NCBI RefSeq assembly: GCF_016887565.1 | Contig: NZ_CP069396.1 | Span: 1,329,001 to 1,393,000 of the forward strand | DNA length: 64,000 nt | Direction: 5' to 3' | DNA from: Archangium violaceum | Lineage (GTDB): Bacteria; Myxococcota; Myxococcia; Myxococcales; Myxococcaceae | Shown here: positions 34,578 through 53,760 of the stretch, one piece after another | How the letters are laid out: every line of letters begins with the position of its first letter | Numbering within the stretch: position 1 is the stretch's first letter | Program-made: the position numbers and the translations under genes | Notes under the pieces: model-generated | Seen by the model: the letters and a program-made list of their open reading frames with translations, nothing else | Told to the model about the DNA's origin: nothing | Databases searched by the model: none

Positions 34578-34620
34578 TCGATACCCTCACCCCGTCCCTC
34601 TCCCGGAGGGAGAGGGGTAG
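34578..34620. repeat. REP-like hairpin repeat (reverse orientation)
   Basis: Perfect 9-bp stem CCCTCTCCC/GGGAGAGGG at 34596-34604 and 34608-34616, preceded by CTCTCGATACCCTCACCCCG. It is the reverse complement of the copy near 58811, with the similarity extending about 29 bases including the TATCGAGA side. It lies in the 152-bp gap after the glnA stop and could also serve as its terminator. Confidence 0.75.
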
Positions 34621-50248: not shown

Positions 50249-50362
50249 GGGGCCGGAACATACCCCCCAGGCAGGGAGACAGGCCAATCGGGCACAAAAC
50301 CCGACGAGCGGGCGGCGCACTGTTATCCTGCTGTGCCTCCCCCTCACGCGCACCCGTCCGGA

Positions 50363-52363
50363 ATGTCCCTCCCCGCTCCCTCGCTTCGCCCCTCCGTCGA
50401 CACGCTGCTCGGCCCCGGTGGCGCGCTCCAGGCCGCGCTGGACAACTACGAGTACCGCCCGGAGCAGCTGCAGATGGCGCGCTCGGTGGAGAAGGCCTTC
50501 AGCGAGCGCGGCTACCTGCTGGCCGAGGCGGGCACGGGCACGGGCAAGACGCTGGCCTACCTGGTGCCGGCGCTGCTGTCGGGCCGGCGCGTGGTGGTGT
50601 CCACGGCGACGAAGACGCTGCAGGAGCAGATCTTCTTCAAGGACCTTCCGCTGCTGCGCGAGCGCATGGGGCTGTCCTTCGACGCGGCGTACCTCAAGGG
50701 GCGCAGCAACTACCTGTGCCTGCACCGCTACGACAAGTTCAGCAAGGACCCGCAATTCACCACGCGTGAAGAGGGCCGTTACTGGAAGCACTTGCAGGCG
50801 TGGGCGAGCCGCACGGAGACGGGGGACCGGAGCGAGCTGGAGCTGCCCGAGTCCTTCAGTGCCTGGGCGCGGCTGTCGACCACGTCGGACACGTGCCTGG
50901 GGTCGAAGTGCCCGGTGTACGAGAGCTGCCACGTGACGCGGGTGCGGCGGGCGGCGGAGTCGGCGGACCTGCTGGTGGTGAACCACCACCTCTTCTTCGC
51001 GGACCTGGCGCTCAGGGGCCGGGGCCAGCGGGGCGAGGGTGTGCTGCCGCAATACGACGCGGTCATCTTCGACGAGGCGCACGCGCTGGAGGACGCGGCG
51101 GGCAGCCACTTCGGGCATTCGGTGTCCAGCTTCCGGCTGGAGGAGCTGGTGCGGGACGCGCTGGCCGTGCTGCCGACGAGTGACTCGCGCTTCGGGATGC
51201 TGTCCTCGCTGGTGGTGCGGCTGCGCACGCATTCGGAGGCGCTCTTCTCCCAGGCGCCGAGGGTGCTGGGGCTGAACGACAACGAGGGCGCGGTGGCGCT
51301 GAAGCCCGACCGGCTGGCGCAGCTGTCGGGCTCCATCGAGCAGGTGAAGGAGGCGCTCTCGGCGCTCTCGGCCTTCACCACGACGGAGCGCGAGCCGGAG
51401 CTGACGCTGCTCACGCGCCGGTGCGCGGAGCTGGTGGCGGACCTGTCCTTCCTGGAGAAGGTCGAGTCGAACGACCACGTGTACTGGGCGGAGGCGCGAG
51501 GGCGGGGCGTCTTCCTGCGCGCGAGCCCCATCGAGATCGCCCGCGAGCTGCAGGAGCGCCTCTACGGAGGGGTGGACACGGTGGTGTTCACCTCGGCGAC
51601 GCTGGCGGCGGAGGGCCGCTTCGACTTCTTCGCGCGGCGCATGGGGCTGTACGACGAGGAGGGCGTGCCGGTGGCGAGCGTGCGCACCGTCTCGGTGCCC
51701 AGCCCGTTCGACTTCGAGGAGCAGTCGGCGCTGTACCTGCCCACGCACCTGCCGGACCCGGCGGCCCCCGGCTTCATCGAGGCGGCGGCGGAGGAGATCA
51801 TCCGGCTGTGCGAGGTGACGGGAGGCCGGGCCTTCGTGCTCTTCACCAGCCTGCGCAACATGGAGCGGGCGCACGCGCTCGCGCGCAACCGGCTGCCCTA
51901 CCAGGTGCTGCTCCAGGGTGAGCGGCCCAAGCAGCAGTTGCTGGAGGCCTTCCGCGAGCAGCCCAGCGTGCTCTTCGCGGCGCACAGCTTCTGGGAGGGC
52001 GTGGACGTGCCCGGGGACGCGCTGAGCCTGGTCATCATCGACCGGCTGCCCTTCGCCTCGCCGGGAGACCCGGTGGTGGGGGCGCGCATCCGCCAGCTGG
52101 AGGCGCGAGGCGAGGAGCCCTTCAGCGGCTACCAGCTGCCACAGGCGGCGCTGGCGCTGCGGCAGGGCTTCGGCCGGCTCATCCGCACCCGGGCGGACCG
52201 GGGCATCGTGGCGATGCTGGACCGGCGCATCGTCACCAAGGCCTACGGGCGCGCCTTCCTCACGAGCCTCCCGCCGGCCCGGCGCATCGACAAGCTCGAT
52301 GCGCTGGAGGGCTGGTTCCACGGGACGCCCGTGCTCGAGCGCGAGGACGACATCGACTTCTGA
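50363..52363 (+). CDS. DinG-family ATP-dependent DNA helicase
   Basis: A 666-residue superfamily 2 helicase. Motif I is EAGTGTGKTLAYLVPAL (near 55-65), and motif II is FDEAHAL (DEAH, near 232). Four Cys in YLCLHRYD ... DTCLGSKCPVYESC (near 115-195) provide the Fe-S cluster site of XPD/DinG proteins. The C-terminal half has GGRAFVLFTSLRNM, FWEGVDVPGDALSLVIIDRLPF and LRQGFGRLIRTRADRG. It unwinds DNA, including R-loop and G4-type structures, in the cytoplasm during repair. The dnaQ-like exonuclease domain of Gram-positive DinG is absent, so it is YoaA/DinG-like. A mobile-type repeat follows the stop by 6 bp. Confidence 0.93.
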   Translation: MSLPAPSLRPSVDTLLGPGGALQAALDNYEYRPEQLQMARSVEKAFSERGYLLAEAGTGTGKTLAYLVPALLSGRRVVVSTATKTLQEQIFFKDLPLLRERMGLSFDAAYLKGRSNYLCLHRYDKFSKDPQFTTREEGRYWKHLQAWASRTETGDRSELELPESFSAWARLSTTSDTCLGSKCPVYESCHVTRVRRAAESADLLVVNHHLFFADLALRGRGQRGEGVLPQYDAVIFDEAHALEDAAGSHFGHSVSSFRLEELVRDALAVLPTSDSRFGMLSSLVVRLRTHSEALFSQAPRVLGLNDNEGAVALKPDRLAQLSGSIEQVKEALSALSAFTTTEREPELTLLTRRCAELVADLSFLEKVESNDHVYWAEARGRGVFLRASPIEIARELQERLYGGVDTVVFTSATLAAEGRFDFFARRMGLYDEEGVPVASVRTVSVPSPFDFEEQSALYLPTHLPDPAAPGFIEAAAEEIIRLCEVTGGRAFVLFTSLRNMERAHALARNRLPYQVLLQGERPKQQLLEAFREQPSVLFAAHSFWEGVDVPGDALSLVIIDRLPFASPGDPVVGARIRQLEARGEEPFSGYQLPQAALALRQGFGRLIRTRADRGIVAMLDRRIVTKAYGRAFLTSLPPARRIDKLDALEGWFHGTPVLEREDDIDF

Positions 52364-52369
52364 CGTTAG

Positions 52370-52634
52370 TGGAGTGTCCACGAAGTTCGTGGACAGAGTC
52401 GTGTTGCGCATGCTCCCTCTCCCTCTGGGAGAGGGCGGGGGGTGAGGGTCGTCACCCTCGTGTTCCTCGCCCCGGCTTGCATCACGGCATGCAACCGCCC
52501 CCCTCGCCGTCCTCTGTGAACTCCCATGGGGTCATGCGCTCCAGGGGGAAGACCCTCACCCTAGCCCTCTCCCAGAGGGAGAGGGGACATCCACGGGCCC
52601 TCGGACTCTGTCCAAAGACTTTGTGGACACTCCA
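52370..52634. mobile_element. MITE-like element with 31-bp terminal inverted repeats and two internal REP hairpins
   Basis: The ends are imperfect inverted repeats of 31 bp (52370-52400 and 52604-52634), matching at 27 of 31 positions. The outer 12 bases TGGAGTGTCCAC and inner GGACAGAGTC are identical. Inside are two REP stems CCCTCTCCC/GGGAGAGGG in opposite orientation (52415-52435 and 52565-52585). No transposase frame is present, and no clear target duplication was found. It fills the whole gap between the DinG-family helicase stop and the PilT stop. Its length of 265 bp, terminal repeats and lack of coding capacity fit a non-autonomous transposable element. Confidence 0.7.
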
Positions 52635-52635
52635 G

Positions 52636-53760
52636 CTAGTGGCCGCCGCCGGGGCTCGCGGTGTCGAACTCGGGCACCTCGAAGCCGGGCTTGAGCCGCT
52701 GGAGCACCTTGCCGAAGGATTCCTTGTCCTGGGCCTTCTCCAGGGCGGCCTCGGGGGTGATGGTGCCCGCGGTCACCAGCCTCTCCAGGTGCATGTCCAG
52801 CGTCTGCATGCCCAGCGACTGGCTCGCCTGCATCTTGCTGGCGATCTGAAACACCTTCCCCTCGCGAATCATGGAGGAGATGGCGCTCGAGCCGATGAGG
52901 ATCTCCAGCGCGGCCACGCGGCCCTTGCCGTCCGCGGTGCGGATGAGCTGCTGGGCGATGATGCCGGCGAGGCCCTCGGCGAGCATGCCGCGCACCTGGG
53001 GCTGCTCGTCGGCGGGGAAGGAATTGATGATGCGGTCGATGGTGGCCGGCGCGCTGTTGGTGTGCACCGTGGCGAAGACGAGCACCCCGAAGCTGGCCAG
53101 CTGCAGCGCCAGCTTCATCGTCTCGTTGGTGCGCAGCTCGCCGATGAGGATGACATTGGGGTCCTCGCGGCCCGCCGAGCGGATGGCGGCGGTGAAGCTG
53201 GAGGCGTGCAGGCCCACCTCGCGGTGTGTCACCTGGGACTTCACCGACTCGTGAACGAACTCCACCGGATCCTCGATGGTGAGGATGTGCGCCGGGCGCG
53301 TGTGGTTGATGTGGTGGATCATCCCCGCCAGCGTGGTGGACTTGCCGCTGCCGGTGGGGCCGGTGACGAGCACCAGTCCGCTGCGGCGCTCGGCCAGCTT
53401 GCGCACCACCTCGGGGGTGTTGAGCTCCGTCAGCGACAGCACCTTGCTGGGAATGGTGCGGAAGACGGCCGCCAGGCCCGTCGTCTTGTAGAAGTAGTTG
53501 GCGCGGAAGCGTGCCTTGGTCCCGTAGCCGTAGGCGAAGTCGAGGTCCAACTCCTCGGTGATGTGCCGCTTCTGCTCGGGGGAGGTGAGCTCGAAGAGCA
53601 TCTCCTCCAGCTCGGCCTGGGTGAGGAGCTGCTCGCGCAGGGGCGTGAGCTCGCCCCGGATGCGGCCCAGCGGCGGGTGGCCGATGCCCAGGTGGAGGTC
53701 GCTCCCCTTGTGCTCGAGGAGCTTGTCGAAGAGGGCGGAGATGCGGGGCGTGGTGCTCAC
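52636..53760 (-). CDS. PilT/PilU-type retraction ATPase paralogue
   Basis: A 374-residue hexameric ATPase of the type IV pilus retraction type. The N-terminal domain starts with LFDKLLEHKGSDLHLGIGHPPLGRIRGEL. Walker A is GPTGSGKST (near 132-140). The Asp box IEDPVEFVHE, AIRSAGREDPNVILIGELRTNET (Walker B) and VFATVHTNSAPATIDRI (His box) follow, and the AIRNLIR-like region is ISSMIREGKVFQI. It starts with GTG; the GTGA overlaps the stop of the upstream PilT-like gene. No pilus genes are adjacent, so it is probably an accessory motor, perhaps used with other pilus or secretion machines. The end is followed by the MITE. Confidence 0.92.
   Translation of the reverse strand: MSTTPRISALFDKLLEHKGSDLHLGIGHPPLGRIRGELTPLREQLLTQAELEEMLFELTSPEQKRHITEELDLDFAYGYGTKARFRANYFYKTTGLAAVFRTIPSKVLSLTELNTPEVVRKLAERRSGLVLVTGPTGSGKSTTLAGMIHHINHTRPAHILTIEDPVEFVHESVKSQVTHREVGLHASSFTAAIRSAGREDPNVILIGELRTNETMKLALQLASFGVLVFATVHTNSAPATIDRIINSFPADEQPQVRGMLAEGLAGIIAQQLIRTADGKGRVAALEILIGSSAISSMIREGKVFQIASKMQASQSLGMQTLDMHLERLVTAGTITPEAALEKAQDKESFGKVLQRLKPGFEVPEFDTASPGGGH

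Follow-up and report, generated by a model that had tools for sequence, protein, structure and literature searches.

A family of short mobile elements with paired hairpin repeats in soil myxobacteria

Several described bacterial repeats resemble, each in some respect, the short element that we report here from Archangium violaceum; statements drawn from cited papers refer to the portions of those papers that were accessible. With insertion sequences of the IS630 / Tc1-mariner type, such as ISY100 and IS630 of Shigella sonnei, the element shares terminal inverted repeats and a TA target duplication; those sequences encode a DDE transposase with an N-terminal HTH, whereas the element has none. 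Cut-and-paste transposition by an IS630-family transposase is established for ISY100 (PMC2170065), and the same paper cites a reference whose title names a preference for the TA in CTAG. RUP of Streptococcus pneumoniae is likewise short and non-autonomous, with IS630-type ends inserted at TA, and was proposed to be a MITE of IS630-Spn1 mobilised in trans (PMC2229807); it differs in being 107 bp long and in targeting, as is said, regions that contain insertion sequences, and the accessible part of its description does not mention a REP pair. QMITE2 of Coxiella burnetii is, like our element, a REP-containing MITE found mainly in 3' untranslated or intergenic sequence, and its truncated copies resemble REPs (PMC5896051, PMC10969869). 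It differs in its duplications of 7-11 nt of variable sequence and in its GTAG-type REP with IS1111 insertions; the accessible parts of these two descriptions mention neither IS630 ends nor placing in TAG stops. Finally, BOX of S. pneumoniae encodes the extreme 3' stop codon in 36 of the 58 annotated genes that it overlaps (PMC3049150). BOX has other modules and ends, and it supplies a stop, whereas our element cuts a TAG stop and restores it.

As far as these sources go, each ingredient is thus known singly: a MITE of IS630 type in RUP, a MITE with a REP near 3' ends in QMITE2, and a repeat that supplies stops in BOX. A literature search at the level of titles and abstract openings returned no description of this element and none of REPs or MITEs in Archangium, and the combination of a REP pair, IS630 ends and insertion in TAG stops was absent from its results.

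The window, that is, the whole 64,000-nucleotide stretch of A. violaceum DNA that was analysed, contains one copy of the element, lying between two genes that converge on it. Its features are as follows (window coordinates; 'copies' are the full-length copies of the same genome, called the host genome below).

52369-52636, plus strand: complete MITE, 268 bp; limits set by 15 aligned full copies and by the empty site in sister species G005
52367-52368, unstranded: left TA of the target duplication; the empty site GACGCTAGTGGCC in G005 compares with GACGTTA, the element and then TAGTGGCC in the host
52637-52638, unstranded: right TA of the target duplication; the minus-strand gene has as its TAG stop this TA joined to the last base of the element
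52369-52400, plus strand: left terminal inverted repeat, 32 bp; ends of the same kind as those of the IS630-family element L066
52604-52636, plus strand: right terminal inverted repeat, with an outer end longer by one base
52401-52450, plus strand: REP unit 1, with head GTGTTGCGCATG, hairpin at 52415-52435 and tail; 7 of 712 positions differ from the consensus in 15 copies
52551-52596, minus strand: REP unit 2 in opposite orientation, with hairpin at 52565-52585 and a CTAG; 4 of 676 positions differ in 15 copies
52451-52550, plus strand: variable spacer between the REP units; 92 of 1162 positions differ, and other copies have internal deletions here
50309-52363, plus strand: left neighbour, a YoaA/DinG-type helicase (NF053712, 738.5 bits, cut-off 680); the start is the one picked for the profile search, and the TGA stop is at 52361-52363
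52636-53760, minus strand: right neighbour, a PilT/PilU family ATPase (TIGR01420, 421.4 bits, cut-off 319.1)

The first-pass annotation, made from the sequence alone, had described a MITE-like element of 265 bp at 52370-52634. The element is real, and its limits are those listed above. The inverted arms at 52370-52400 and 52604-52634 do match at 27 of 31 positions (87%), the two REP hairpins do lie inside in opposite orientation, and no transposase is encoded within, all as had been claimed. The annotation had also let the element fill the space between two convergent genes; it does lie between them, but it is not a mere gap filler, for its right boundary is straddled by the TAG stop of the PilT/PilU family gene (52638-52636). 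The left terminal repeat holds a 21-bp palindrome with a single unpaired base at its centre, and the right end reads CTCCAGC in place of CTCCAC, with one extra base. An Rfam search of 51900-53100 gave no family above the gathering score. In sister species G001-G004 the gap between the helicase and pilT-like genes is filled by other sequence (by eye, a sensor-kinase-like gene in G002 and G004 and other frames in G001 and G003), so the gap is prone to insertion.

Taken by itself, the match between the arms might be an accident of inverted repeats in a REP-rich gap, with no mobile element involved. Among 300 stretches of 268 bp drawn at random from the window, 1 reached an equal match, 27 of 31 at any placement, and that one may overlap the element itself; the match in this single copy is therefore unlikely to be due to chance, yet it is not decisive. 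The decisive evidence is the further copies of the element. The host genome (13,213,980 bp in one contig) has 126 matches to it, a count that includes pieces and hits in either orientation, and identity across the matched length is 93-97% for the ten best other copies. A 24-mer of the end occurs at 31 host sites with at most 3 mismatches, and its reversed control at none; a 16-bp piece of the end was nearly as frequent in its control (107 sites) as in the real search (142 sites, 3 mismatches) and was left out of the counts. Paired ends were sought at 29 loci (L001-L020 and nine others). Fifteen REP-type copies have both ends; their lengths range from 117 to 271 bp, with nine at 264-268 bp. Both ends are also present in L031, L071 and L143, which are elements of other types, and the remaining loci have one recognised end or none. 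With one end read, there are 10 host copies. The consensus of the 15 full copies is 266 bp, and its ends match at 30 of 32 positions. The spacer is shortened in L015, L017, L018 and L020 and missing in L033. Beyond the host, a 27-bp end pattern (at most 3 mismatches) is present in 9 of 39 genomes, the host included, and these cover all 6 of the genus. The first-pass annotation had named the lack of any second copy as what would refute it, and had proposed looking for a full transposon with the same ends and for empty sites in sister strains; copies are many, and both of the other searches succeeded. The chance reading is refuted by the many copies, the TA duplication, the empty sites and the complete transposon that shares these ends, and we give it practically no weight. 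What the window contains is a member of a family of short mobile elements in soil myxobacteria, each with paired hairpin repeats.

The target site can be read from sister genomes that lack the insertion. In G005 the window locus, L001, is empty and reads ACTTCTGACG-CTAG-TGGCCGCC (GACG-CTAG-TGGCC) with a single TA, and the L003 site is just as cleanly empty there. Empty sites with small gaps beside the TA are readable for L005 (in G005) and L008 (in G003), while L004, L007 and L020 are empty in G005 with additional local changes. Other sister sites are diverged (L007 in G003 and G001, L004 in G003) or have an unreadable junction (L003 in G004; L015 in G003, G001 and G004), and G005 is itself occupied at L006 and L015. 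These comparisons establish that the duplication is TA and that the usual target is CTAG. Fifteen full-length elements with kindred ends, from this genus and two others, likewise have cta before the element in 15 of 15 cases and tag after it in 14 of 15.

The full transposon is a complete 1207-bp insertion sequence in sister species G004 (L066, 1001-2207), with 27-bp ends of the same kind; its terminal 32 bp are matched at 97% by the end of host copy L007. The two frames of this insertion sequence give matches to HTH_29, DDE_3 and the IS630 transposase model (NF033545, 125.7 bits against a cut-off of 100; PF13358, 60.1 bits against 28.6). In L066 the transposase is split between the two frames, which meet at a TTTCCCCCCCT run; the run stands at the frame junction in all seven copies examined (L066, L093, L094, L102, L108, L095 and L098), which suggests a programmed frameshift. 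Matches to this transposase at E 1e-20 or better occur in 10 of 58 genomes of the family, and the host is not among them. The close matches, from this genus and two others, have kindred ends, and three distant ones (30-33% identity) are without them. Given the shared ends, the TA duplication, the multiple copies and a length too short for a transposase, all features of IS630-family MITEs, the element is very probably a MITE with the ends of an IS630-family (Tc1/mariner type) insertion sequence.

Which transposase moves the host copies has to be judged from relatives. Searches of the host genome with the G004 element, by protein (E 1e-20) and by DNA (E 1e-6), brought up none of its interior, and host DNA matches that element at its terminal 32 bp only. 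The one DDE_3 gene found in the host was considered as the source and rejected, its ends being unrelated by eye, and no transposase with these ends was found in the host genome. As these searches found neither a source transposase nor a relic of its interior in the host, mobilisation in trans is what the relatives point to: an IS630-family transposase acting in trans would cut the MITE out and paste it into the TA of CTAG.

The cargo between these ends belongs to a much larger set of repeats. The REP hairpin core is found at 659 host sites with at most 1 mismatch, and its control at none. The matches listed repeatedly include pairs spaced by 65-67 bp, along with hairpins of other spacing and loop type. 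Nineteen loci picked for REP-like similarity to the element were read by eye: the heads of the REP units are of the GGGTTGCGCATG or CCGTGGATG type, several loci have the head GGGTTGCGCATG and no trace of MITE ends, some keep remnants of those ends (for example L124, L127 and L137), and in a few (for example L125 and L134) GTAG, the tetranucleotide of RAYT-type REPs, adjoins the REP tail, which it does not in the window copy. It could be supposed from the end remnants, and from the existence of deletion forms, that the genome's REPs are decayed MITEs and derive from this family. We regard this as quite improbable, since hairpin sites number 659 and the MITE copies read about 25, several REPs that begin with GGGTTGCGCATG lack any trace of the ends, and loops and spacings of other types are present. 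The first-pass annotation was right that the element ties a REP family to a transposable structure; the element is not, though, the main spreader of REPs, by the same numbers. The MITE is a carrier of a REP pair and not the origin of the REP family.

Because its interior is a REP pair of this larger family, the MITE probably arose when the ends of an insertion sequence came to enclose such a pair. How REPs and a related group of insertion sequences can meet is shown by another host element. At L071 a 272-bp element of another subtype, with related ends, is inserted at a CTAG within a REP unit. Elements of this 272-bp type, with ends GTGGAGTGTCCGACAAG..., lie at L071:551-822 (G000:C1:3072050-3072321) and at L143:491-762, and their ends are equal or nearly equal to those of a broken insertion sequence in G003 (L098). 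Targeting of REPs is known for other families of insertion sequences (PMC1525189); L071 is a similar case, and the window element instead has REPs as its cargo. A REP pair that travels between the ends of an insertion sequence, as this one does, has one concrete route to new sites without a RAYT-type transposase. A link to RAYT was not found in the host: it has five weak Y1_Tnp frames (L144-L148), with no REP core within about 1.2 kb of them. Three of these frames read as proteins of 313-419 aa, of one family, with an ASNHFHLLVW motif.

Within the copies, the REPs stand out by how little they vary. Relative to the consensus of the 15 host copies, 11 of 1388 positions differ in the pooled REP units, compared with 92 of 1162 in the spacer and 65 of 960 in the ends (26/480 left, 39/480 right), so that within one set of copies the REPs are less variable than spacer and ends by a factor of seven to ten. 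Most of these copies were first found by similarity that included the REPs, a procedure that could favour copies with good REPs. Nine copies from relatives differ at 4 of 446 (REP1), 10 of 413 (REP2), 77 of 672 (spacer), and 29 of 280 and 38 of 287 positions (the two ends). Even L016, the most diverged host copy, retains 46 of 46 positions of REP2, against 65 of 99 in its spacer. The search with the end 24-mer was blind to REPs: by position its 31 sites belong to 22 elements, namely 20 REP-type copies that were known already and two elements of other types, L031 and L032. This search thus contains no REP-type copy that has lost its REPs.

Selection and gene conversion can both explain this pattern. 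Conversion by, or continued seeding from, other genomic REPs would keep the units alike with no selection on the MITE. With 659 similar hairpins in the genome as possible donors, and the same core present in REPs outside MITEs, this is an explanation to be taken seriously, though we hold it to be somewhat less than probable: the heads of the REPs are part of what is conserved, and within every copy the two units retain heads and tails that differ from each other, whereas conversion would tend to exchange these if its donors were mixed.

The other regularity of the family is where its members sit. A copy was scored as lying in a stop when the TA plus the element's terminal G formed the TAG of a frame of at least 240 nt with GC3 >0.8, and 13 of the 15 full host copies lie exactly in such a stop, the exceptions being L015 and L017. 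For control, CTAG sites were collected from 20 stretches of 20 kb plus the window (about 401 kb): of 56 sites, 15 are at stops (13 when GC3 is rounded), 13 in called coding sequence and 28 elsewhere. The excess among the copies is significant (13/15 against 15/56; Fisher P 3.9e-5), and it persists when called-coding sites are excluded (13/15 against 15/43, P 7e-4), although genes were called here by the length and GC3 of open frames instead of by annotation, a method that misses low-GC3 genes, so that this null for non-coding CTAG sites is uncertain. Under stricter gene rules, 12 of 15 copies and 9 of 55 CTAG sites are at stops (P 7.8e-6), and the stop is accompanied by a convergent gene ending within 60 nt in 8 of 15 copies and 2 of 55 sites (P 2.5e-5). 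That many 'other' CTAG sites lie in REPs was considered and rejected (0/56). Relatives have 9 distinct full copies, of which 6 lie at a stop, two of them being orthologous to host L006 and L015. By eye, the copies look unevenly oriented with respect to the stop gene, in numbers too small for a claim.

Because G is the first base of the element's ends, a TAG stop that takes the insertion in its TA is restored; elements that cut a TAG in this way can settle between genes with none of them broken. By eye, the sister genome has TAG at the same place for L001, L003, L005 and L008, and TGA for L007 and L020, so the stops predate the insertions. Insertion in a TAG stop would thus leave the protein unaltered, the element's own G completing the stop again.

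Such placing may reflect tolerance alone, insertion being random among CTAG sites and surviving only where proteins and promoters stay intact, with a REP cargo that has no role. CTAG is rare (56 sites in about 401 kb), 15 of those 56 already lie at putative stops, the true non-coding rate may be higher if coding sites escaped the gene calls, repeats are believed to be tolerated downstream of genes (PMC3049150, accessible part), and just 2 of the 10 one-ended copies are at a stop. Yet the full copies exceed even the rate for CTAG sites not called coding, and full-length insertion sequences with kindred ends are at stops in 1 of 15 cases, no different from the CTAG rate in G063 (10/53); 2 of these 15 are in the genus and 13 in two other genera, some with broken transposases, so this is a weak control. 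None of the four host elements of other types is at a stop. Tolerance also leaves unexplained why the REPs are conserved amid drifting ends and spacer, and we consider it possible, on the doubtful side.

A role for the cargo at gene ends is the remaining reading. RNA of either strand is predicted to fold as a single long hairpin, at -171 and -169 kcal/mol with z near -10. A scan of 52200-52800 found no promoter and no intrinsic terminator; without a T run, intrinsic termination is unlikely, so an effect, if there is one, would be exerted through RNA stability or factor-dependent termination. REPs have been cited as stabilising RNA and are said not to be specific terminators (PMC1525189, accessible part). 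The hairpin may be harmless or useful at the 3' ends of genes, where the element would then be retained. That copies at stops and between convergent genes are kept because the REP hairpins serve as a two-way 3' end, or at least do not disturb one, is a reading we favour only tentatively; the bolder version, a transposable 3'-end module that lands in TAG stops, above all between convergent genes, and installs a two-way RNA 3' end or insulator, with its REPs under selection, is possible, though less likely than not. Near-identical copies, empty sites in sister species, a likely source element and a bias to the stops of convergent genes together form a natural experiment, and with these copies the old question of what REPs do at the 3' ends of genes becomes directly testable.

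Some minor observations concern other repeats of the same genome. The window has more REP hairpins, at 34596, 41415, 58811 and 58877, two of which form a pair 66 bp apart. L031:3267-3444 is a 178-bp element with kindred ends and an interior palindrome, ACTGGTCCGATGGTCGGACCAGTT, in place of REPs; a one-ended relative near 3437 of L032 also has the palindrome and no REPs. The left flank of L002 (query positions 3-97) has a dispersed repeat, roughly 90 bp long, that extends over the same palindrome and recurs at 23 further host sites at E 1e-15.
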